NCBI RefSeq assembly: GCF_900163755.1 | Contig: NZ_FUKI01000108.1 | Location: 1-64,000 of the forward strand | Source of the DNA: Crenothrix polyspora | GTDB taxonomy: Bacteria; Pseudomonadota; Gammaproteobacteria; Methylococcales; Methylomonadaceae | DNA length: 64,000 nucleotides | Direction: 5' to 3' | Shown here: positions 8,968-56,163 of the stretch, piece by piece | Layout: the number at the start of each line of letters is the position of its first letter | Position numbering within the stretch: the stretch's first letter is position 1 | Translations under genes and position numbers: made by a program | Notes under the pieces: generated by a model | What the model was told of the DNA's origin: nothing | Database searches by the model: none | What the model saw: the letters and a program-made list of their open reading frames with translations, nothing else

Positions 8968-9098
8968 AAAGAATGCTGAGTCACTTAGGAACGCGCACGA
9001 AATAACTTGAGCAAGTTCATGCTTCGACAGGCTCAGCACGAACGGTGGTGGCGTTTAAGTTGTTCAAGTTATTTCATGCACGTTCCTTAGCATTCTTT
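8968..9098. other. Hairpin split by repeat B
   Basis: AAAGAATGCT at 8968-8977 and AGCATTCTTT at 9089-9098 are perfect reverse complements. With the 99-bp repeat B and one TTA copy removed they would form a 10-bp stem with a loop of about 9 nt, flanked by A and T runs like a rho-independent terminator. The element therefore inserted in the loop of a pre-existing hairpin. Confidence 0.6.
8988..9086. repeat. Repeat B copy 2 (99 bp)
   Basis: Ends are GGAACG and CGTTCC, flanked by TTA at 8985-8987 and 9087-9089 within CTTAG. It is in the opposite orientation to copy 1 and carries the same internal core. It lies in the loop of the hairpin described at 8968-9098. Confidence 0.85.
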
Positions 9099-10292: not shown

Positions 10293-10422
10293 ATGGCTAC
10301 CCGCTTAGACGGGACACAATAAAAAGTCGTTCGTGGTGAGTTTGTTAAACCATGAACCACAAGCCCTTCGACAAGCTCAGATATAAGGGCGAACGGATGC
10401 CCAACCTTAAGCGGGTAGCCAT
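10293..10422. repeat. Repeat C copy 1
   Basis: Inverted ends ATGGCTACCCGCTTA and TAAGCGGGTAGCCAT enclose a degenerate copy of the CGTTCGTGGTGAG/AAGCTCAG palindromic core. Similar ends bound 17980-18140 and 26799-27010. It abuts the transposase remnant and supplies in-frame ATGs to it. Confidence 0.65.
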
Positions 10423-18169: not shown

Positions 18170-18268
18170 GGAACGCGCACGAAATAACTTGAGCAAGTTC
18201 ATGCTTCGACAGGCTCAGCACGAACGGTGGTGGCGTTTAAGTTGTTCAAGTTATTTCATGCACGTTCC
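18170..18268. repeat. Repeat B copy 3 (99 bp)
   Basis: GGAACG/CGTTCC ends are flanked by TTA at 18167-18169 and 18269-18271, again within CTTAG. Orientation and length are the same as copy 2, and the two are nearly identical. It lies between the cyclase and the FlgO-like gene. Confidence 0.85.
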
Positions 18269-19209: not shown

Positions 19210-19334
19210 CAGCTTTTTCAACTTAGGACAGTTACAGCTACCGTTCGTGCTGAGCTTGTCGAAGCATGAACGGCACACTTCGACAAGCTCAGTGCGAACG
19301 GTTACGCTGTAACTATTGAACTGTGAAAACGCTG
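19210..19334. repeat. Repeat A copy 2 (125 bp)
   Basis: The left end CAGCTTTTT (one change) and right end AAAACGCTG are flanked by TA at 19208-19209 and 19335-19336. It is nearly identical to copy 1 and in the same orientation. It lies upstream of the FlgO-like gene start and may carry or displace its promoter. Confidence 0.85.
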
Positions 19335-26798: not shown

Positions 26799-27010
26799 TT
26801 AAAGCTAGTAACTTAAAACGGGACAACTTTAAATAAAACCGTTCGTGGTGAGCTTGTCGAACCATGAACCACAAGTCCTTCGACAAGCTCAGGACGAACG
26901 GATATCCCATCATAAGTTGGTAACGACTTCTCCGCCATCCCCCGATGATCAATCGGGGATTCTGGTTCTTTTAAGTTCCAGAATCAAGATATAAAGTTGG
27001 TAGCCTTTAA
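26799..27010. repeat. Repeat C copy 3
   Basis: The left end TTAAAGCTAGTAACTTA and right end AAGTTGGTAGCCTTTAA are imperfect inverted repeats. They enclose the palindromic core (CGTTCGTGGTGAGCTTG/CAAGCTCAGGACGAACG), a CCCCGATGATCAATCGGGG palindrome and an ATTCTGG/CCAGAAT hairpin. The right 19 bp equal those of copy 2. Confidence 0.6.
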
Positions 27011-28558: not shown

Positions 28559-31500
28559 ATGAATAACAAATTAGTCGATGCTTTTAATGCGCGATCCCCC
28601 GAAGAACAACTGATTCTACACGCATTAGCGGTTATTTACGCACCAATAGGGCAAACCGCTCTGCAAACGTTGTTAAAAAAAGCCCTTGATTTAAAGCCTG
28701 CTATTACGGGTCTTATCGAAAAGAGTTTGCGCGAAAAATTGCTGAAAGCAGGTTTAATCCTCACCCCTTCGGATGGCTGGCAATGCCATCCAGAGATGTG
28801 CGAATATTTAATGAAGCGTGCGGTTTTGCAGCCCTGGTTTACGGCACTGGCAACTGCTTTGCTTTCTGAGAATAGATTTTATTATTACGCGGATCGTGAC
28901 ACACTTTTTTACCTTACCAAGCGCTTGCGATTGTTTTTATACCAAGGCAATAGCAAGGGCTTTATGGATGAAACCAGGCGTATTGCTGCCCTGAAGCCAC
29001 AAGAGTTACCTGTTCTTTTCGAAAGTCTTTTTTTTGCTAATTTTGATGCCGAATGGTTTGCCAGTATAAATAGCAGCATTAGATTCTGTGTGTTGTCTGG
29101 TTTTGTTGAAAGCAATATTTGGCTGTTTAACGATACCCGTAAGCACTATCAATTATTAGAAGAATTTTTTGCTGCTGAAAAGCCCGTTGCGTTAGCGGCG
29201 GCGCAAAGTATTATTAGTGAGCGTTTATTACGCGGCAATTTGGCTGATGCCGATGACTGGTTAACCGGTGATAATTCATCGGTAAGTTTGAAGCTATTAG
29301 CGACTACGCGCTTTTTACAAAACCGTAACGATGACGCTTTGCTGTTGTTTGAAGCCGCACACAAAGCACTTAAAAAAGAAGTCAGTAAGCGCAATGTCAG
29401 TTTTACCGGCTTGTATGGCTATTTTTATAGCCTGGCGTTATTTCGCAACCGCAGTGTAAGTAGCATCACACTCCTGAAACAAAATCTGCAAATTACCCTT
29501 AAAACAGGCGGCCAAGGTCGGTTTTATTTGCTCAATGTCATTTTGCAAGAAGCGGTTGATATTTATCAAGGCAAACTTCCTGTTGAAAGCAGTGTATATC
29601 TGTTTAAAAACAACAACTACGACTATGAGTGTCTGTTTCACGCCTTGCTATTGTATTGGCTGGGCGAAATGGAAACCATGACAGCGGCAAAAAAAGATTT
29701 TTTACCCAGTTTGGCCGGATTTTGTGAGCAAGCACACCAACTGGGTTTTGTTTGGTATGCCACAGTCAGTTCTGCGTTGTTACAGCGTTTAGGCTACGAA
29801 AGCCATGTGTGTCAAAAAATAGCGGCACAATATGCGGATTCGCCTTTTATTGCCATTCTTGATTTATTGCCGCGTGTAGAAAAATGGCAACGTGCCTTAG
29901 AGGCGTTAACCCAGTTAACGGGTGATGCAACTGTTAATAAAGCCCAACCAGAAGTGCGTATGATTTGGGCGTTGTCTTTGGTTAATAATTACATAGCACT
30001 GGAACCTAAAGAACAAAAACTGGGTAAAAATGGCCGCTGGAGCAAAGGTCGCCCCATTGCGTTAAAACGCTTATTCCATAATCTGGCTGATTTTGATTAT
30101 CTGTCCGAATACGATCGTCGTATTTGTGCCCATATTACTTTGGAAAAAGAACGTGATTACTATTATACGAAAGATATTTATGAAATTAGCAGTGAAGCAA
30201 TTTGGTCAGCTATTGGCCATCCGTATATTTTTTGGCTGAATCAAGAGATACTGGATGCGCCGGTGCAAATTACGACCGCTGAGCCGCAATTGCTGGTAAA
30301 AGAGCAAAAGAAAGCGCTGCATATTTCTATTGTCCCCAAAATTACCAGTCAAAAAATCATTGCTCAAAAAACCGCTGACAATGGTTTATTGTTATACAAA
30401 ATTAGCGACCAACACCGGCAAGTGGCCGAAATTTTAGGCAGTAACGGGTTAATTGTACCTGCCGCTGCACGTCAGCAAGTGATTGACTCCATTGCTTCGA
30501 TAGCGTCAATGCTGACCGTGCAATCTGATATTGGCGGTACGTCCAGCCATGCTATCAGTGTTGATGTTGACAGCCGTTTGCATATTCATTTACAACCGAT
30601 GGGCAATGGTTTGCAGATCGAAATTTTTGTGCAACCGTTTAGTGCGGGCGGGCCGTTGTATAAACCCGCTGCCGGTGGTGCCACGGTATTGGCAGAAATT
30701 GATGGTAAACAATTGCAAACCCACCGTGATTTTAAGCTGGAAAAAAACTACTTAAAGCGCGTATTGAATGAATGTTCAGAACTTTACGTCGATAAAGATT
30801 GCAAATGGCTGTTAGATGATGCTGAGTTTGCGCTAGAGGCTTTATTGCAATTACAAGCTTTAGGTGATTTTGCGGTATTGGAATGGCCGAAAGGCAAAAA
30901 AATACACATTAGCCGCGAAGCGGGTTTAAAGCAGGTACAGTTCTCGGTACGTAAAGAAAAAGACTGGTTCAGCATCGAAGGCAGTCTGGAAATTGCTGAG
31001 CAAGAAGTGCTGGATATGCAGCGTTTAATGGCGTTATTAAACGGTTCATCCAGCCGGTTTTTAAAATTGGAAGATGGCCAGATTATTGCCTTAACCCGCG
31101 AACTGCGTCAACGCCTGGATGATTTGGTCGGTTTGGGTGATGTGCAAAAAGACAAAGTACGTTTTCATCCGTTAGCAGCACAAGCGCTGGACGATATTAC
31201 CGCCGGTATGCGCATCAGTGCCAGCAAACCGTGGCAAGATCAGCTGAAACGTCTCAACGAAGTCGGTGATTTAAACCCTAAAATACCGTCTACTTTGCAA
31301 GGTGAACTGCGCGATTATCAACGTGAGGGTTTTCAGTGGATGACCCGCTTAGCGCATTGGGGTGCCGGCGCGTGTTTGGCGGATGACATGGGCTTAGGTA
31401 AAACCATACAAGCGCTGGCGCTGATATTATCGCGTGCGCCTAATGGACCAACGTTGATTATTGCCCCTACTTCGGTGTGCATTAATTGGTTAGAAGAATG

Positions 31501-32680
31501 CCAGCATTTTGCCCCAACGCTCAATGCGTATCAATTTGGCAGCGGCGATCGTCAAGCCATGCTGGATAATGCCGGCCCGTTTGATTTGGTGGTGTGCAGT
31601 TATGGTTTACTGCAATCTGAAGGCGAACGTTTGGCAGAAAAGCGCTGGCATACGCTGGTGGCTGATGAGGCACAAGCCATTAAAAATGCCCTGACCAAAC
31701 GTTCAAAAGCGGCAATGGCTTTGCAGGCTGATTTTAAGCTGGTGACTACCGGTACGCCGATAGAAAATCATCTGGGTGAGTTGTGGAATTTGTTTAATTT
31801 TATTAATCCTGGCCTGTTGGGTACGTTAACCAAATTCAATGAACGCTACGCGCAGGCTATCGAAAATAATCAAGATAAAGTGGTACAGCAACGTCTGAAA
31901 AAATTGCTGCGCCCGTTCATTTTACGGCGGCTTAAAAATGACGTGTTAAAAGAATTACCCCCGCGTACCGAGTTAACTTTGCACGTCGAACTCAGTCCAG
32001 AAGAACGGACACTGTACGAAGCTTTGCGCCGCAATGCCATGCAAACCATGATGGAACCCACCGGCCAGGCGGGGCATCAGCAGTTAAGAGTGCTGGCTGA
32101 AATCATGAAACTGCGCCGTGCCTGCTGTCATCCGCGTTTAGTCATGGAAGAAAGTACGATTGCCAGTTCTAAGCTTGAAGCGTTTGAAGAGCTGGTTGAC
32201 GAGTTGCTGGCCAATCGTCATAAGGCGTTGGTGTTTAGCCAATTTGTTGGGCATTTAACCTTGATACGTGAGCGTTTGGATAAAAAAGGTATTAGCTACC
32301 ATTATCTGGATGGTTCGACACCGGTGCCGCAACGCAAACTGGCGATGAATGCGTTTCAGGCCGGTGATGGTGATTTGTTTTTAATTAGTCTGAAAGCTGG
32401 GGGGACTGGTTTAAATTTAACGGCGGCTGATTATGTGATTCATATGGATCCGTGGTGGAATCCGGCGGTGGAAGATCAGGCTTCTGATCGAGCGCACCGT
32501 ATGGGGCAAAAACGCCCAGTCACTATTTACCGTTTAGTGGCTAAAGACACGATTGAAGACAAGATTGTCGAGTTGCACAAGCATAAACGCGATTTGGCCA
32601 ATAGCTTGCTGGAAGGCGGTGAGGTGAGTGGTAAGATGTCGGTTGAAGACATGATGGCGTTGATTAAAGATATTGATTAA
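28559..32680 (+). CDS. Large SNF2-family helicase/ATPase
   Basis: The 1373-residue protein has a C-terminal SNF2 engine from about residue 915: motif I DDMGLGKT (near 945), DEAQ (near 1035), TGTPIENHLGELW, VFSQFVGH, LKAGGTGLNLT and ASDRAHRMGQKRPV (near 1309). Residues of about 480-900 look like the bacterial SNF2-associated region (HISREAGLKQVQFSV). The first 480 are helical and repeat-like, with no CxC SWIM motif noticed. SNF2 enzymes translocate on duplex DNA to remodel protein-DNA complexes. The gene stands alone, so a restriction or defence role is not supported by context; a RapA-like or repair role is equally possible. Confidence 0.88.
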   Translation: MNNKLVDAFNARSPEEQLILHALAVIYAPIGQTALQTLLKKALDLKPAITGLIEKSLREKLLKAGLILTPSDGWQCHPEMCEYLMKRAVLQPWFTALATALLSENRFYYYADRDTLFYLTKRLRLFLYQGNSKGFMDETRRIAALKPQELPVLFESLFFANFDAEWFASINSSIRFCVLSGFVESNIWLFNDTRKHYQLLEEFFAAEKPVALAAAQSIISERLLRGNLADADDWLTGDNSSVSLKLLATTRFLQNRNDDALLLFEAAHKALKKEVSKRNVSFTGLYGYFYSLALFRNRSVSSITLLKQNLQITLKTGGQGRFYLLNVILQEAVDIYQGKLPVESSVYLFKNNNYDYECLFHALLLYWLGEMETMTAAKKDFLPSLAGFCEQAHQLGFVWYATVSSALLQRLGYESHVCQKIAAQYADSPFIAILDLLPRVEKWQRALEALTQLTGDATVNKAQPEVRMIWALSLVNNYIALEPKEQKLGKNGRWSKGRPIALKRLFHNLADFDYLSEYDRRICAHITLEKERDYYYTKDIYEISSEAIWSAIGHPYIFWLNQEILDAPVQITTAEPQLLVKEQKKALHISIVPKITSQKIIAQKTADNGLLLYKISDQHRQVAEILGSNGLIVPAAARQQVIDSIASIASMLTVQSDIGGTSSHAISVDVDSRLHIHLQPMGNGLQIEIFVQPFSAGGPLYKPAAGGATVLAEIDGKQLQTHRDFKLEKNYLKRVLNECSELYVDKDCKWLLDDAEFALEALLQLQALGDFAVLEWPKGKKIHISREAGLKQVQFSVRKEKDWFSIEGSLEIAEQEVLDMQRLMALLNGSSSRFLKLEDGQIIALTRELRQRLDDLVGLGDVQKDKVRFHPLAAQALDDITAGMRISASKPWQDQLKRLNEVGDLNPKIPSTLQGELRDYQREGFQWMTRLAHWGAGACLADDMGLGKTIQALALILSRAPNGPTLIIAPTSVCINWLEECQHFAPTLNAYQFGSGDRQAMLDNAGPFDLVVCSYGLLQSEGERLAEKRWHTLVADEAQAIKNALTKRSKAAMALQADFKLVTTGTPIENHLGELWNLFNFINPGLLGTLTKFNERYAQAIENNQDKVVQQRLKKLLRPFILRRLKNDVLKELPPRTELTLHVELSPEERTLYEALRRNAMQTMMEPTGQAGHQQLRVLAEIMKLRRACCHPRLVMEESTIASSKLEAFEELVDELLANRHKALVFSQFVGHLTLIRERLDKKGISYHYLDGSTPVPQRKLAMNAFQAGDGDLFLISLKAGGTGLNLTAADYVIHMDPWWNPAVEDQASDRAHRMGQKRPVTIYRLVAKDTIEDKIVELHKHKRDLANSLLEGGEVSGKMSVEDMMALIKDID

Positions 32681-32772: not shown

Positions 32773-32869
32773 AACCATGTGCGATGAGCAAACAATAAGT
32801 ACATCCAAAAGTCGCTATTGTATAAAAACACGTAAATGTCGGGCATAAAAAATATGTCCGATCTGCCTA

Positions 32870-33096
32870 CAGCGTTTTCACCGTTCAATAGTTACAGCGT
32901 AACCGTTCGCACTGAGGAACGTGCATGAAATAACTTGAACAACTTAAACGCCACCACCGTTCGTGCTGAGCCTGTCGAAGCATGAACTTGCTCAAGTTAT
33001 TTCGTGCGCGTTCCTGAGCTTGTCGAAGTGTGCCGTTCATGCTTCAACAAGCTCAGTACGAACGGTGGCTGTAACTGTCTTAAGTTGAAAACGCTG
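32870..33096. repeat. Repeat A copy 3, interrupted by repeat B
   Basis: CAGCGTTTT/AAAACGCTG ends are flanked by TA (32868-32869 and 33097-33098). The orientation is inverted relative to copies 1 and 2. The 227-bp length equals 125 bp of A plus 99 bp of B plus a 3-bp TGA duplication. The A sequence resumes exactly after the insertion (CACTGAG then CTTGTCGAAG). Confidence 0.88.
32916..33014. repeat. Repeat B copy 4, nested in repeat A
   Basis: GGAACG/CGTTCC ends are flanked by TGA at 32913-32915 and 33015-33017, in the context CTGAG. The uninterrupted copies of A have a single CTGAG or CTCAG at this point, so the empty site is visible in the same window. It has the same orientation as copy 1. 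Confidence 0.9.
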
Positions 33097-33106
33097 TAAC
33101 TCAAAT

Positions 33107-34015
33107 TTACGCTTTGTTTTCCCCGCCAAATAATTCTAATAAACGCGGTAAAAAATTAGCCAATTCCGCAGACATAATGGCAAAGTCAGTATCGAATTTT
33201 GCCGCCGCATCATCAGAATTACCATCGGCAACCTGGTCTTGAATTAAATCCAGAAAGCGTAAACGCTTAATAGATAAAATATCATCAATAACAAACGACA
33301 GTCGTTGATCCCAGCTGATGGCCAGTTTAATGACTTCTTTACCGGTATCTAAATGGTTTTTAATTTCCGGTACAAATAAATTATGGCGTTTACAGCGGAT
33401 ACTGCCACCTTCTTCTTCCGGTGAACGTAATTCGCATTCGTCTTCTATAGTAATGTCGTCTGGGAAGTGTTCACTGCTTAGCCATTCGGTCATCACAGCA
33501 GTGGGTTTATCAAGGGTGTTAAGTGGTACAGCGGGCAACGAGCCCAAACTTTTACGCAACAAGCTTAGTAAATCTTCGGCTTTTTTGGCAGAAGCACTGT
33601 CTACCACTAACCAGCCGCCTTTGGGATCAATATAAGCGTAGGTATTATTGGAGAAAGTGAAAGCTTTCGGTAACAATTCAAAAATCAGCTCATCTTTAAT
33701 CTCAGTGCGCTCTTTTTTGGATAATTTTCGACCCTCTTTTTCTTCTTTTTCGGCAATTTTATCGGCAGTCATTTCATTAATTACAGACGATGGTAAAACC
33801 CGTTCTTCTTTTTTGGCACACAACATGATAAAACCGTTGCTGCTGTGCTGCAGTTGTTGTGCCGATTTACCTAAGGGTGCAGTCCATCCCATGGCGGTTT
33901 CTTCGTGTGAGCCACAAGGGCGAAACGCCAGTGCTTCAAGTTTTTGTTCTAATTCTTCAGGGGTAAGAGTGAATGCTTCAGTCAGACGAAAAACGCTAAG
34001 ATTTTTAAACCACAT
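33107..34015 (-). CDS. rdgC: Recombination-associated protein RdgC
   Basis: The 302-residue protein starts MWFKNLSVFRLTE and continues with LEALAFRPCGSHE, GWTAPLG and ITIEDECELRS, the conserved RdgC pattern. RdgC forms a ring dimer on DNA and restrains RecA-mediated recombination. Length matches. No clear ribosome site is adjacent to the ATG. Downstream lies the nested repeat A/B pair, 11 bp from its stop. Confidence 0.93.
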   Translation of the reverse strand: MWFKNLSVFRLTEAFTLTPEELEQKLEALAFRPCGSHEETAMGWTAPLGKSAQQLQHSSNGFIMLCAKKEERVLPSSVINEMTADKIAEKEEKEGRKLSKKERTEIKDELIFELLPKAFTFSNNTYAYIDPKGGWLVVDSASAKKAEDLLSLLRKSLGSLPAVPLNTLDKPTAVMTEWLSSEHFPDDITIEDECELRSPEEEGGSIRCKRHNLFVPEIKNHLDTGKEVIKLAISWDQRLSFVIDDILSIKRLRFLDLIQDQVADGNSDDAAAKFDTDFAIMSAELANFLPRLLELFGGENKA

Positions 34016-35835: not shown

Positions 35836-35991
35836 GCGCTGACTTTATTTTTTAACACCATGTTACTCAAAGCAGGCAACACAATAAACCTTACACTATA
35901 ATTCAAAAATACCCATAGTAATAATCGCTTCGTGCTGGCAATGCCTTGAATAGGATCACGGTCAGGTTTTAACGCCGAAAAGGTTTGTGTT
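35836..35991 (-). pseudogene. Broken duplicate of the hpnN 3' end
   Basis: 35836-35949 aligns with the last ~115 bp of the RND gene (46526-46642), sharing GACTTTATTTTTTAACACCA and the following ~90 bp with scattered changes. 35948-35991 aligns with an internal part of the same gene (47424-47467, GGTCAGGTTTTAACGCCG). The intervening ~780 bp is missing, with the junction at a shared GAAT. Insertion-sequence debris begins immediately at 35992. Confidence 0.8.
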
Positions 35992-36785
35992 ACTCGATCT
36001 TCAAGTTTTTAAGCTTAGAAAAACGCCAAGAAACCGAGTAAGCTAATCAGTGATAGGATTCAACGTATTTCAGCACTATATTGATGTCCGAGCCGGCACA
36101 GTTTATAAAAACCTTTGTAACTGAATTAAATGAGGTATTAGGAAAGCTAAAATCCAATGCCAAACTGACGGAAATACAAAGTGACTGGTTAGGATTATGT
36201 TTAACTAGGATCTTGCTGACCAACACCGTGTGTTGGGCAAAGTTTCAGCGAGCGTGCTTAGGCACCTATAAAATTGCAGCACTTTCGTGGATGTTTCGTG
36301 ATGCCAAGATTGCTTGGGATTATATGCTGATGGCCAGTGTAACAATGGTTCTTGAACAACACGGGATCACTGAAGGGGTACTGGTTCTTGATGAATCCGA
36401 CCGAGCGCGTTCAAAGCGAACAAAGCGCCTTTATACTCGATCTTCAAGTTTTTAAATTTTAACTATCGAAAATCAGCCCGCAGTTCTGCACCGTAGGGAA
36501 GCTGTTGGTTGCATGCGGCCTAAATTTCGTCCAATCATATGTTTACCAGAAGGCATCAACTGAAAAACATCGCCAATCAGTTCCGCTAATTCCTTGAGTT
36601 TATCCGTTGGATTGTGGTGCTCCAGTATTGTCTTGATAAGCTCCAGCAGCACATCCATTTGAGATTTTCTTTGCAGACAGCCGGTTCGGACATCAACATA
36701 GTGCTGAAATACGTTGAATCCTATCACGGATTAGCTTACTCGGTTTCTTGGCTTTTTTCTAAGCTTAAAAACTTGAAGATCGAGT
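35992..36785. mobile_element. Insertion-sequence debris with inverted ~107-bp arms
   Basis: The left arm (35992-36098, starting ACTCGATCTTCAAGTTTTTA) is repeated in inverse orientation at the right (about 36665-36785) with only a few changes, through GATGTCCGARCCGGC. The DNA between does not form one intact transposase. The left side carries a truncated transposase gene, while the right side carries a different, unidentified minus-strand frame (about 36473-36727). Two or more partial copies seem to have been joined. Confidence 0.65.
36084..36455 (+). pseudogene. Truncated DDE transposase N-terminus
   Basis: The ~123-residue frame contains WLGLCLTRILLTNTVCWAKF, ALSWMFRDAKIAWDYMLMAS and VLVLDESDRARSKRTKR. 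The Asp in VLVLDESD looks like the first catalytic residue of an IS4/IS701-like DDE transposase. It breaks off right after KRLY, where ACTCGATCTTCAAGTTTTTA (36435-36454), the element's own end sequence, takes over. The catalytic core beyond is absent, so it is inactive. The exact IS family is not certain. Confidence 0.6.
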
Positions 36786-36837
36786 AAATAACAAGGAGGA
36801 GCGATGTGTTTAAGTTCAAAAATACGTCTTATTTGAT

Positions 36838-39863: not shown

Positions 39864-41263
39864 GGGTATAATCCATTTATCTATTTTTTAGGCGCAGCAA
39901 TGCACAACAAGCTGGTTGTTATCAGCTCGTTCCATGTAGTGCTAGATGCCCGGGCTTGGTTTATGGGGCGGCAGCCTGGCTAAAGGCAATAGTTGGGCTA
40001 TTGCCGTACCGGCATTGTGAATAGTTAGGTTTTCATGGTGGCTCTCTGTATTGGGTTAAATAACAACAACACGGACTACACTGATAAGGCGGATTGGCTT
40101 TTTTAGGATGGGCTAGATTTGAATTGGCAATGGCTTTGCCAACAAATTATATTCCCGCCTCCAATGCGGTTTTTCAGTGACATCCGTGTTTTCACAGCAA
40201 ATAACTAGCATTTAACATGCCATTAGTTATATTAATATTTTTTTTATGTAACCAACTGATTTGGTATTAAAAATAATTTTCTCGCGGCTTGTTTTTTTGG
40301 GATGCTAAGTGGGAATTTCTAAGATATTCCCCTTGTAGTACGGAAAAATGTCACGATTTGTCAAAACAAGTCATAACGAAGAAAGATAGGCGGACTTTAA
40401 GTCGGCTAAATCCATTTTTTTCAATTAATTGATTATTAATGGTTTAATTTCTTATGGTGCAGGAAAATACCGGTGGTTTAGATGAGGACAAGGCGGTGCA
40501 ATAAATATTTACAAGAGTTGGATAAGCTTTTTTCCATTTTATGGAATGAACAAGCGCGTTTTTTCGTAAGCCTCATGTTGTAAATAAAGCTGGCTGCAAT
40601 TTTCTTTGTCTAGCAAAGCTAACAAGTTGTTACTTATACTTATATGCGAGGGAGAGTTATCAAAATACAGAAAAGTTTACTTAAAAATTAGGAGGCCTAA
40701 TGGTGCTTGCAAAAAAAATTGAGGCAATGGTAAAGCATTGCTTATTTTCTAATTAATTCTACCTGTTGCCCCTGTAAACAGCGGCTGATAATTAAAGTAA
40801 AAAAAAATGACGCTAATTAATCATAGGTAAACCCCCAGCTCTGCTGGGTGACTCACAAAGTTTGACAATTACGGGAATCAATTGAGAATTACGTTATAGG
40901 CGAAATGTTTAAGACGCTGCGAGACAGGAGTTGAGTAGTCCCCAGAAGCGATAGGTGCATGTGTTTTCACGAAGCGAAGCGTAGCGTGGTGAAAATGCAG
41001 GCTTTCCGACATCGCGTCGAGTCATTTGCGTACCAAAGTTTTAGACCCGCTTTTTAGGGTCTAAAACGAGAGAAACGAGGACGACTGGGACAGCCGAAGG
41101 CATTAGTAGTCGCGTAATTTTTGCTGATTTTTCGAGCAGGATCCCTGAAAAATCTTTCGCAAAAATAGCGACTCCCTTCCTCGGTTTCTTGGCGTTTTTC
41201 TAAGCTTAAAAACTTGAAGATCGAGTTAATATCAACCAAAAAACGATACGACTGGAAACGGGA
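39864..41263. other. Long intergenic region with hairpins and an IS end
   Basis: There is no supported gene in 1.4 kb. Near the peroxidase start, a GC-rich block contains a perfect hairpin GGCAATAG/CTATTGCC (39985-40005) and a CCCGGGC segment, possibly a structured leader of the minus-strand mRNA. At 40831-40853 ACCCCCAGCTCTGCTGGGTG forms a hairpin like those at some IS ends. A TTTAGACCC/GGGTCTAAA hairpin lies at 41039-41064. At 41184-41226 a solo copy of the CTTGAAGATCGAGT end sequence of the 36-kb insertion element appears. Confidence 0.5.
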
Positions 41264-44293: not shown

Positions 44294-44593
44294 TAAGTTC
44301 ACTGCTATTAAGTTAAGGATTCCGATTACCAAACGGTAGAATCAAGAATAAGGGTGGGCACATGTTTTTTGTGCCCACGCGGGGCAATATAGTAATAAAT
44401 ACTCGATGTTCAAGTTTTTAGCCAGGTAGGGTGGGCAACGCTTTTTTGCCCACCCAATGTATTTGCAGAAACGGAGAATGATATTTTTTGTATCCACGCG
44501 GAACATTCGTGGCTTTTATGGTTTGTATTCTGCGACTGTCAATCAGCAAGGTAGCCTGGATGAAGTTTGCGGAATCCAGGCTTTTGACTGGGC
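44294..44593. repeat. Repeat cluster between DUF1993 and a toxin gene
   Basis: This stretch contains a GGGTGGGCACATG/GTGCCCAC hairpin (44351-44379) and a degenerate ACTCGATGTTCAAGTTTTTA insertion-sequence end (44401-44420). A GGTGGGCAACG/TTGCCCACCC hairpin (about 44430-44457) follows. A ~115-bp segment (44429-44545) containing ATCCACGCGGAACATTCGTG recurs at 45470-45585. A GTAGCCTGGATG...CGGAATCCAGG palindrome lies at 44552-44581. Confidence 0.65.
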
Positions 44594-45189: not shown

Positions 45190-45715
45190 AGTAATCCCCA
45201 TACGGATAAACGCACTACTGCACTATAGCACTATTTTATTAAAGTGAGCAAGGTAGCTTGGATGGGGCTGTTGGGAGCCAGGTAGCCAGGTAGGGTGGGC
45301 ACATGCTGTTCGTGCCCACGCGGAACAATGCGGTGATGCTTTTGGTGGGAAAAATTGCCTGCCCACCCTACATTTGACGGCTTTTGTTATAATCAAAATC
45401 CGTCTTGGCTGATCAATTTTGATATGTCACGTTATCGACGCGCCGATATTCCGGGTGCAGCCCAGTAGAGTGGGCAACGCTTTTTTGCCCACCCAATGCA
45501 TCGACAAAAACTGGGGATGGTATTTTTTGTATCCACGCGGAACATTCGTGGCTTTTATGGTTTGTATTATACTGCTGTCAATCAGGCTCGGCCAAAATTG
45601 ACCGGATTGTCTCTATTGTTGTCAGCGAGGTAGCCTGAATGGAGCTTGCGAAATCTATACACCTAATTGCAGAAAATAAGTGTATTATAGCGACAAGTAA
45701 ACATCGGAGAACGTT
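45190..45715. repeat. Repeat-rich spacer between two toxin-antitoxin modules
   Basis: No gene is supported in 526 bp. Present are GTAGCTTGGATGGGG-type and GGTGGGCACATG/CGTGCCCACGC palindromes (about 45245-45330) and the second copy of the ~115-bp direct repeat (45470-45585; GGTATTTTTTGTATCCACGC is shared but for one base). An AGCGAGGTAGCCTGAATGG unit lies at 45629-45647, just before the vapB leader. Confidence 0.65.
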
Positions 45716-53745: not shown

Positions 53746-55803
53746 CTACCGACTGTTATCGTCAATACTATCATCCAAGTCTAATGCCTTCATCTCCAAG
53801 CCCTCAATCTCATGCAACGATTTCCCCGCAATGCCTTGTAAATCGCCGTACATGCCAATAGTGGCGTTCATCACTCGCTCAATCTGCGATTGCCGTTTTG
53901 CCCATTGCTTCATAATGACTTTACGCTCTTTGTCCAAATCTTCCTGCATGGTAGAGAAAGCTTCAACGATGGCTTCCACTCTTTGCCTAAAGCGTGGCCC
54001 AGTCAGATATTGATAGACCATTTCCGTTTTACTGTGTTGGCCTTCAGCAGACATTCTGGCCAGCCCAATTTGCAACAAACTGTCACGTAAAATAGTCGCT
54101 ACTGGCAAGGCCGCACGCGGACTGGTAATCCATATACCATCAATCACATCAAACGTATCAATGCCTTTAGGCAGCGTCTGGCTGACTAATACTGCAATAT
54201 CCGCCTTGGCATTACGCTGATCTTCGCGTAGTTTAACTAACCAGCCATCACTCCAGTTTTTGGTGCGTTTGGACTCCCACAATATAGTGCCACCGGTATT
54301 GCCAGTAGAGCTGATAACGCGCTGCACAGTATCGCCGCCAAATTCGCCTTTGGCCACTGGCTCTATCGAATCAAACGGAAACTTGAGCCGGAGCATATTT
54401 TCCAATTCCAGCTCTTGTACTTCGCCTTGTAACTGTTGCGAACCCTGCTCGGCTTTTTGTTTTAGCTCCTCAATTTTTTGCTGCATAGAAGCCATCTGCT
54501 GGTCTTTTTCCATTAGCTTGAGTTTTATGCTGTCTTCCACTTCACGCTTGGCTTGGCTACGCACATCGCTTAAACCATCTTGCACACGTTTTTCTACCGT
54601 AAGTTCCAACTCGCGTTTTTCATCGTCTAATTCACGTTGTTTTTTAATCAATTCAGCTTGCGCTTGCTGGGCTTCGGCAAGCTTTGCATCACGCACTTTT
54701 AACACTGCTTGCAGATCATCCAATTCACGGGCTTTGTTATCCAATTCAGCGGCAACCGCTAATTTGGCTTTTTGGCTTTCTTCACCGATTACCCGCAAAC
54801 GCTCGTTCTTCAACTGTTCCAGCAATTGTGCTTCTTTATTGCGCAGCCCTTGTTCACGTTGCGCCATAGTCTGATCTTTTTCGGCTAACTGTTGTTCAAA
54901 CTGCTGGCGTACCGCATTGGCTTCCTGTTTGGCCTGAGTACGCGCTTCGGTAATACTGTCTTGTACGCGCTTTTCTACGGTGAGTTCCAGCTCGCGTTTT
55001 TCATCGTCTAGCTGGCGTTGTTTTTTAATCAACTCGGCTTGGGCTTGCTGCGCTTCGGCCAATTTAGCATCGCGGGTTTTCAGTACGTCTTGCAGATCGT
55101 TTAATTCGCGTGCTTTATGGCTCAACTCTGCTGCAACCGACTGCTTGGCTTTCTGACTTTCTTCGACAATAACCCGCTCACGCTCCCGTTTTAATTGCTC
55201 GGTCATTTGCTGTTCTTTAGCCAGTAAACCTTGCTCACGCTGCGCCACTGCCCGATCTTTTTGTGCCAATTGCTGCTCAAACTGCTGGCGAATCGTATCG
55301 GCTTCTTGTTTGGCCTGAGTACGCGCTTCGGTAATGCTGTCTTGCACGCGCTTTTCTACCGTGAGTTCCAGCTCGCGTTTTTCATCATCTAATTGACGTT
55401 GTTTTTTAATTAACTCGGCTTGGGCTTGCTGCGCTTCGGCCAATTTAGCATCGCGGGTTTTTAGCACGTCGTGCATATCGGCCAGCTCACGCGCTTTGCT
55501 GTTTAGCTCTGCGGCAGCGGCTTGCCTGGCTTTTTTGCTTTCTTCAGCCATAATGCGTTCACGTTCGGCGTGTACTTGCTTGCCGACTTGCTCTGCCACT
55601 TGGGCTTCTACAGCGCGTTGCGCGTCCAGTAATTGTTTTTGCTGGTCACGTACTGCTTGCTCGCGTTGAGCGATGTCTTGGTCTTTTTGCTGTAATTGCT
55701 GCTCAAACTGTTTGCGGGTTGCCGCTAATAGAGGAGCGGCCAGCGATTCAGTCAAACGGTTTTCTGTACCACATTTAGTACAGATGATGGTAGCTTCGGT
55801 CAT
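53746..55803 (-). CDS. DUF2130 coiled-coil protein
   Basis: The ATG at 55803 is preferred because it starts MTEATIICTKCGTENRL, a short CxxC head typical of the family. The 685-residue protein has a long coiled coil (about 30-430) made of three tandem ~127-residue repeats. The C-terminal DUF2130 domain (LRLKFPFDSIEPVAKGEFGGD, ILWESKRTKNWSDGWLVKLR, GIDTFDVIDGIWI) has an E-x-K and Asp pattern reminiscent of restriction-fold nucleases. DUF2130 proteins have no established function. The N-terminal extension upstream of 55803 lacks conservation signals. Confidence 0.82.
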   Translation of the reverse strand: MTEATIICTKCGTENRLTESLAAPLLAATRKQFEQQLQQKDQDIAQREQAVRDQQKQLLDAQRAVEAQVAEQVGKQVHAERERIMAEESKKARQAAAAELNSKARELADMHDVLKTRDAKLAEAQQAQAELIKKQRQLDDEKRELELTVEKRVQDSITEARTQAKQEADTIRQQFEQQLAQKDRAVAQREQGLLAKEQQMTEQLKRERERVIVEESQKAKQSVAAELSHKARELNDLQDVLKTRDAKLAEAQQAQAELIKKQRQLDDEKRELELTVEKRVQDSITEARTQAKQEANAVRQQFEQQLAEKDQTMAQREQGLRNKEAQLLEQLKNERLRVIGEESQKAKLAVAAELDNKARELDDLQAVLKVRDAKLAEAQQAQAELIKKQRELDDEKRELELTVEKRVQDGLSDVRSQAKREVEDSIKLKLMEKDQQMASMQQKIEELKQKAEQGSQQLQGEVQELELENMLRLKFPFDSIEPVAKGEFGGDTVQRVISSTGNTGGTILWESKRTKNWSDGWLVKLREDQRNAKADIAVLVSQTLPKGIDTFDVIDGIWITSPRAALPVATILRDSLLQIGLARMSAEGQHSKTEMVYQYLTGPRFRQRVEAIVEAFSTMQEDLDKERKVIMKQWAKRQSQIERVMNATIGMYGDLQGIAGKSLHEIEGLEMKALDLDDSIDDNSR
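54510..55680 (-). repeat. Three in-gene tandem repeats, period 381 bp
   Basis: The string ATCAACTCGGCTTGGGCTTG (and close variants) recurs at 54646, 55027 and 55408, exactly 381 bp apart, or 127 codons. The protein repeat core is AKLAEAQQAQAELIKKQR followed by LDDEKRELELTVEKRVQD, nearly unchanged in all three units. The outer units diverge more at their far ends. The exact borders are approximate. Confidence 0.85.
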
Positions 55804-56163
55804 GGTTGGAGTTCCAATTTTAAAAAAGGTCAATCTCGGTGAATAAGGTTTAACTAATCCAGCAGTTGGGAGAGCTGTCAATACCACGCTGGCAATAAAA
55901 TACTGAATCTGCGAGCGCGTATTGTGCCTATCCACCAAAGATAACGCTAATGGTATTCCACAAATGGCGAAAACGCTTACGGTTGTTCAATTTCCCTGTA
56001 AAACCTTGTCGTTTTTAAGTTTGAATTTATGTTCGACCGTTATAGTGCCTCACTGCGCTCATATCGGAAACCTAATGCGGATGTGTAACTCTTGTCTAGT
56101 GGACGAGGCTGCACATTCGCTGGTGGTTTTTGAATACCACTGTATTTTTGGGAAAAAATAATA

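Follow-up and report, generated by a model that had tools for sequence, protein, structure and literature searches.

In the 64,000-nucleotide stretch of Crenothrix polyspora DNA that was analysed as a whole (the window), a nested repeat lies just beyond the 3′ end of rdgC (33107–34015, − strand). On its other side it adjoins a large gene for an SNF2-type helicase (28559–32680, 1373 aa), for which all NCBIfam matches were under their cut-offs. The nested element spans 32868–33098 on the − strand and consists of a repeat, A, with flanking TA duplications, interrupted by a second repeat, B. The part of A that contains its right end occupies 32870–32915 and ends in the first copy of a TGA target duplication (32913–32915); B, a 99-bp MITE with ISAzo13-type ends, follows at 32916–33014, the second TGA at 33015–33017, and the remaining part of A, with its left end, at 33018–33096. 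Both parts of A and the inserted B are on the − strand. Uninterrupted copies of A with TA on both sides are located on the + strand at 2156–2280, which represents the pre-insertion form, and at 19210–19334.

A preliminary description had read 32870–33096 as an insertion of B into A, on the argument that its 227 bp exceed the 125 bp of an uninterrupted A by one B and one duplicated triplet. The arithmetic is exact, the excess of 102 bp being B (99 bp) plus the second TGA. Joining the flanks without B and with a single TGA gave 125 bp, with five differences from the A at 2156 and four (G17A, G40A, C51T and T113G) from a consensus built on 17 uninterrupted copies of A. The halves flanking B match the uninterrupted copies, in which the pre-insertion site was seen as claimed, and the mismatch of halves that the description had named as a danger was not observed. 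That A is itself bounded by TA is a point we add. B in the composite is identical to the B at 18170–18268, whereas the A parts carry four substitutions; B is therefore younger than its host A here, in keeping with the earlier statement that B moved after A. Neither repeat had been linked to a transposase in the window, and none was found in contig C96 for the four transposase families searched genome-wide. The check for the same composite in relatives was answered in part. An rdgC orthologue is present in both other genomes of the genus that were compared, and the sequence downstream of it gave no alignment to the window in either, so that neither A nor B is located there; a strict empty site was not seen. 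This absence agrees with insertion, without constituting a clean empty site. Overall, sequence comparison supports the earlier interpretation of a B insertion into A, which did not extend to the parent families, to the repeated occurrence of the nesting or to a shared core.

Other B copies in the window are located at 8988–9086 (+ strand, TTA duplication), at 18170–18268 (+ strand, TTA duplication; the reference copy) and at 2583–2689 (− strand; a 107-bp variant with a TTA duplication on the + strand). Across the genome (3.92 Mb) the B terminus was matched 97 + 95 times with up to three mismatches, compared with 0 for a reversed control, so chance is not an issue for B. The 40 scored among 252 B candidates were all full or near-full copies (99–100%). 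A survey was assembled of 65 distinct copies with both ends: 39 were identical to the reference, 16 had one difference, six had two, one had eleven, and three were length variants, and the proportion identical to the reference is to be taken as an upper estimate, since the source match lists favour perfect ends. Exact 3-bp duplications flanked 61 of the 65 (in B's own orientation, TTA 33, TAA 24, TGA 2, CTA 1 and TCA 1), with no exact duplication at the other four, which bears out the description of B as mobile and non-autonomous. The target consensus is YTNAR, and exact CTNAG was present at 35 of the 65 copies. B's termini are complementary at 27 of 34 positions, forming terminal inverted repeats, and the element folds as a long hairpin (z-score −5.1). 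Terminal inverted repeats, a duplication at most copies and ends common to autonomous IS place B among MITEs. Bacterial MITEs include Nezha, NEMIS and ERIC according to the accessible part of PMC3733652, and B resembles bacterial MITEs in being short and non-coding, in its terminal inverted repeats and target duplications, in its many copies and in having IS ends. An IS5-type origin, suggested by the TNA duplication, was rejected, as no B end (up to three mismatches) was found near the PF01609 loci, of which the genome has seven matches.

The B terminus (up to two mismatches) was present in 89 of 201 genomes of the window's family, and a match to PF07592 in 72 of the 201 (67 over the cut-off), the window's own genome being included in both counts. 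The accessible text of PMC9208149 reports the ISAzo13 family in only three gammaproteobacterial genomes, compared with the 72 of 201 carrying PF07592 here. Thirty PF07592 loci from the search of the 201 genomes were examined. Five had both B-type ends (at least 20 of 23 positions) with exact 3-bp duplications (L209, L210, L211, L215 and L220; 1326–1327 bp, with open frames of 405–414 codons), six had one such end (at least 19 of 23 positions; L207, L212, L217, L221, L222 and L229), and 19 had neither at that threshold, which limits the candidate parents to one subgroup of the ISAzo13 family. The product of L209 is an intact 404-aa ISAzo13 transposase (NF033519, 479 bits, cut-off 200), and the left/right asymmetry of the parent ends is kept in B. 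An exact-pattern scan of other genomes, with own-genome records possibly left out, returned at least 78 B-type stretches; among the matches listed, at least 55 were of Methylococcales type, at least 13 were from Nitrosomonas and at least 10 were others, including Thiotrichales. Broken ISAzo13 transposases between B-type ends with a TTA duplication were found in a methanotrophic symbiont of Bathymodiolus japonicus (L124, 1615 bp) and in Parabeggiatoa (L175, 1585 bp).

The preliminary description had proposed a genome search for a full-length IS; one with B-type ends was found intact in relatives, while the window's own genome yielded no intact ISAzo13 transposase and only a 28-position relic (C65:3460–3543). 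Because this relic is all that was found, the transposase responsible for moving B was not observed where it would have acted; the assembly, in 180 contigs of which several end inside B, leaves room for a collapsed ISAzo13 copy. B itself carries no transposase gene, for which 99 bp is too short, and is accordingly a derivative and not a full member of the family. It shares with the ISAzo13 family (PF07592, NF033519) the two ends and the TNA duplication, with intact transposases in relatives, and differs in lacking a transposase and in having only a relic in its own genome. In the accessible literature on ISAzo13 and MITEs, no description of an ISAzo13-type MITE was found.

Duplication of TA is a trait of IS630/Tc1-mariner elements. 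Among 19 A copies with both ends, TA flanked the element on either side in 18, the nineteenth being truncated where the analysed stretch stops; a further copy (L042) has no recognisable right end. The genome contains 239 A ends, from which some 120 copies of A are estimated. With up to three mismatches allowed, A-like ends were present in 18 of the 201 family genomes, the window's included, and a short element with paired A-like ends was found at 17 of 27 loci from relatives. At one of the other loci (L243, 494–1530, 1037 bp) A-like ends enclose an intact 316-aa IS630 transposase; the ends of this single element follow A for the first dozen bases, agree with it loosely beyond that, and are similar rather than identical. 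A resembles IS630/Tc1-mariner elements in its TA duplication and in the IS630 transposase of the element with A-like ends, and differs in being non-autonomous and 125 bp long. On these sequence similarities A is most likely an IS630-type MITE, its parent family being less firm than that of B; A and B are two unrelated MITEs. An IS630 relic on contig C99 was rejected as A's parent, since the adjoining A-like end points the wrong way.

We conclude, with a probability of about 0.93, that B is an ISAzo13-family MITE inserted, probably in trans, into A, an older MITE for which an IS630 type is the most likely. Sequence comparison shows the anatomy of the composite, its duplications, B's parent family and the empty sites, which uninterrupted A copies represent. 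In the sequence of events proposed, A would have inserted first, at TA, as a MITE most likely of IS630 type. B would consist of two distinct ISAzo13 IS ends around a short filler, with ends recognised in trans by an ISAzo13-type transposase that would since have been lost from the genome or be missing from the assembly. Insertion would have taken place at a CTNAG palindrome inside A, with duplication of the central TNA (TGA on the + strand here). As an event, the insertion of one MITE into another is ordinary; this example is unusually clear, and in it the parent family of B is identified and that of A likely. Both the relative age of an ISAzo13-type MITE and its exact target rule can be read from the nested pair.

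Such nesting is recurrent. When 64 B copies were tested against A, 10 were inside an A, the window copy included; an eleventh (L044) interrupts a truncated A and has no exact duplication, and incomplete B copies beside A-like flanks (L058, L061 and L078) were left out of the count. Chance would give 0.9 nested copies (binomial P ~1e-7), an expectation that was based on 32 B copies in CTTAG/CTAAG sites and about 2.7% of such sites being within A, and that takes the site density of the window, the estimated 120 A copies and independence as its inputs; independence may be violated by composites that share the substitution A19G. The existence of nine other composites, plus the one in a truncated A, is also what would be expected if A with B were an old unit copied whole, with no recent B insertion recorded. 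A19G is common to L018, L020 and the truncated L044 and is absent from the 17 uninterrupted A copies, so some composites may descend from one event. In the nine others, however, B occupies the CTTAG at A position 13, in one orientation in five and in the other in four, while the window B alone uses position 79. In addition, the outer flanks all differ where they can be read, three composites (L015, L016 and L018) reaching a contig end on one side. The five same-orientation composites had 14 substitutions in 503 bases of A and 0 in 495 bases of B (Fisher p = 0.0001; p = 0.027 without L020), which places B later than the divergence of A. Opposite-orientation composites provided no clear age contrast, as copying of an old unit would allow: A had 1, 2 and 2 substitutions in L036, L051 and L071, and B had no differences, a length of 106 bp and two differences, respectively. 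The composite at L046, with a truncated A end, allowed no comparison. We consider it very improbable that the window composite is an old unit of this kind. In its A the favoured CTTAG has become CTTAA through G17A, and this loss, a single case, fits the use of another site by B.

Inside its ends, B has a stretch that matches the inner half of A at 33 of 34 positions, and the fillers of the two elements are nearly the same REP-like palindrome, the unit of which we call S. Homologous recombination between these cores could have made the junction in place of transposition, and loci of the kind that it predicts exist, in which S is bordered by a B end and, on its opposite side, by an A end (L287 and L299:13477–13537). 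Exchange at the core yields one-sided hybrids, however, whereas the composite retains both full B ends, with the 3-bp duplication at B's exact termini, and recombination as the source of the junction is so improbable as to be nearly negligible. A short-read assembly artefact within the repeats could also account for the junction, and several contigs do end inside B or inside composites. Against this, the composite lies inside a contig that is 64 kb or longer, and its B occupies a site of A that none of the other ten uses; its substitutions G17A and C51T occur in none of the other composites (G40A was seen in L020 and T113G in L044); and a false join would need both exact termini and the matching duplication. 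We give an artefact only a slim chance, and retain insertion of B into A, probably in trans, as the origin of the composite.

The 15-base core of S occurs exactly 420 times in this genome. Its surroundings were surveyed in a 464-kb sample (the window and 20 stretches chosen by position), in which inverted flanks scored above the 99th percentile at 25 of 33 S loci. The control was 2000 random places of the same sample (99th percentile 28, maximum 62), and the survey sites 33043 and 32957 belong to one composite. At least two frames besides A and B were recognised around S, one with GGCTACC-type ends and one of AGTACTYAGTCA type. The GGCTACC frame was found in 18 rows, some of them alternative pairings of one locus, 15 with S; duplications of at least 8 bp were present in eight of the 18 (L034, L036, L272, L273, L274, L275, L286 and L296), seven of these with S. 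The AGTACTYAGTCA frame contained S in four of seven rows, and no duplication was recognised in the seven. The share of rows with S is biased upwards, since many loci were chosen for holding S (L268–L287) or B (L012–L091); the rows allow four errors. In the window, a C/D-type frame (GGCTACC... ends) with an S core and no exact 8-bp duplication is located at 10295–10420 (+ strand), and an S-core pair at 26839–26901 (+ strand) has no frame recognised by the inverted-flank test. Lenient patterns for C, D and E frames were dropped for counting, having left 22 of 56 loci frameless, most of which resembled chance matches (13-base core, two mismatches), and were replaced by the inverted-flank test. 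An origin of S from RAYT (IS200-like) genes was also rejected, with no S (up to two mismatches) in four loci around PF01797 hits. L274:236–380 holds a GGCTACC frame without S; its 8-bp duplication, TTATTTCA, coincides with the expected position of a degenerate B's right end, and a B has probably been invaded here by a MITE of a third kind.

Cores were also compared in relatives. None of 48 B-type elements with duplications from relatives contained S (up to two mismatches in 15). ISAzo13-type and IS630-type MITEs of relatives (L092–L121 and L232–L260) carry other palindromes, among them GGAGTGCA, CCCTCTCC/GGAGAGGG, GTAGGGGC and CCATGAAG; the core-class patterns are short, so that isolated hits, such as those of S in L109 and L240, may have arisen by chance. 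An S-like core within an A-type frame was found in L246, which comes from another genus. The GGAGTGCA palindrome was present in five of 16 paired B-type elements of family genomes and in eight of 17 paired A-type elements, all in genus g15 (five of 12 and eight of 10 there, respectively). Four g15 genomes were sampled for both end-types. G015 has the GGAGTGCA core in both, and the B-type element sampled in G096, G119 and G128 had another core or none recognised; with one B-type locus sampled per genome, core sharing in these three is neither proved nor excluded. S-like matches were also found in 18 plasmid records (Moraxella 13, Sphingobium 2, Comamonas 2 and Novosphingobium 1). The three plasmid S regions that were examined lie between annotated genes, the plasmid gene table being incomplete, and their inverted flanks scored 32, 28 and 16, over flanks slightly longer than in the genome survey. 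S is dispersed as an extragenic palindrome, other organisms included, as REP/REPIN repeats are.

In this one genome the same core is thus carried by an IS630-type frame (TA), an ISAzo13-type frame (TNA), the GGCTACC frame (8-bp duplications) and a fourth. One core across frames of different transposases is less ordinary than the nesting itself. The centre of a MITE may be an exchangeable cassette, such that frames of unrelated transposases carry one REP-like core, and REP-like palindromes lacking a transposase would spread as cargo of DDE-type MITEs, passing between families by capture or conversion at the dyad centre. We give this idea a little under even odds; it is weakened by the different cores sampled in three of the four g15 genomes. 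An abundant palindrome could be captured when a MITE forms by internal deletion, a palindrome could insert into the centre of existing MITEs, or conversion could take place between cores already present. These routes are not separable on the present data, and the near-identical cores and the hybrid loci lead us to favour conversion for the A/B pair. The shared core bears on how REP-like palindromes move when they have no dedicated transposase, an open point in the accessible part of PMC3733652, where CGTC REPs are described as being without a known transposase; if the idea is true, such palindromes ride in MITEs and pass between them.

The accessible text of that article also describes insertions of REP dimers or elements into longer palindromes in A. 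variabilis, T. roseum and H. neapolitanus. These palindromes are not identified there as IS ends, and the text does not show a single genome with the same core in several unrelated frames; the REP dimers in palindromes of its section 7 may be the same thing, with the ends unnamed. Within the accessible literature on methanotroph MITEs, nested MITEs and MITEs with REPs, nothing that describes the arrangement was found beyond that section 7 note; the portions of PMC4853749, PMC9208149 and PMC10045372 available do not describe a nested or shared-core arrangement, and the nested-MITE literature found, as far as accessible, concerns rice. Searches of the literature with three strings from the S core did not retrieve the sequence.

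Other repeats were observed in the window. Three direct repeats of about 300 nt, with 381-nt spacing, are located at 54540–55601 within a long open frame (53746–55938). A direct 127-nt repeat, 87% identical, is present at 44420–44546 and 45459–45585, 1 kb apart. An inverted 108-nt pair (35990–36097 and 36680–36787), 96% complementary and 582 nt apart, has a related copy at 41176–41235 and is possibly another mobile or regulatory repeat.
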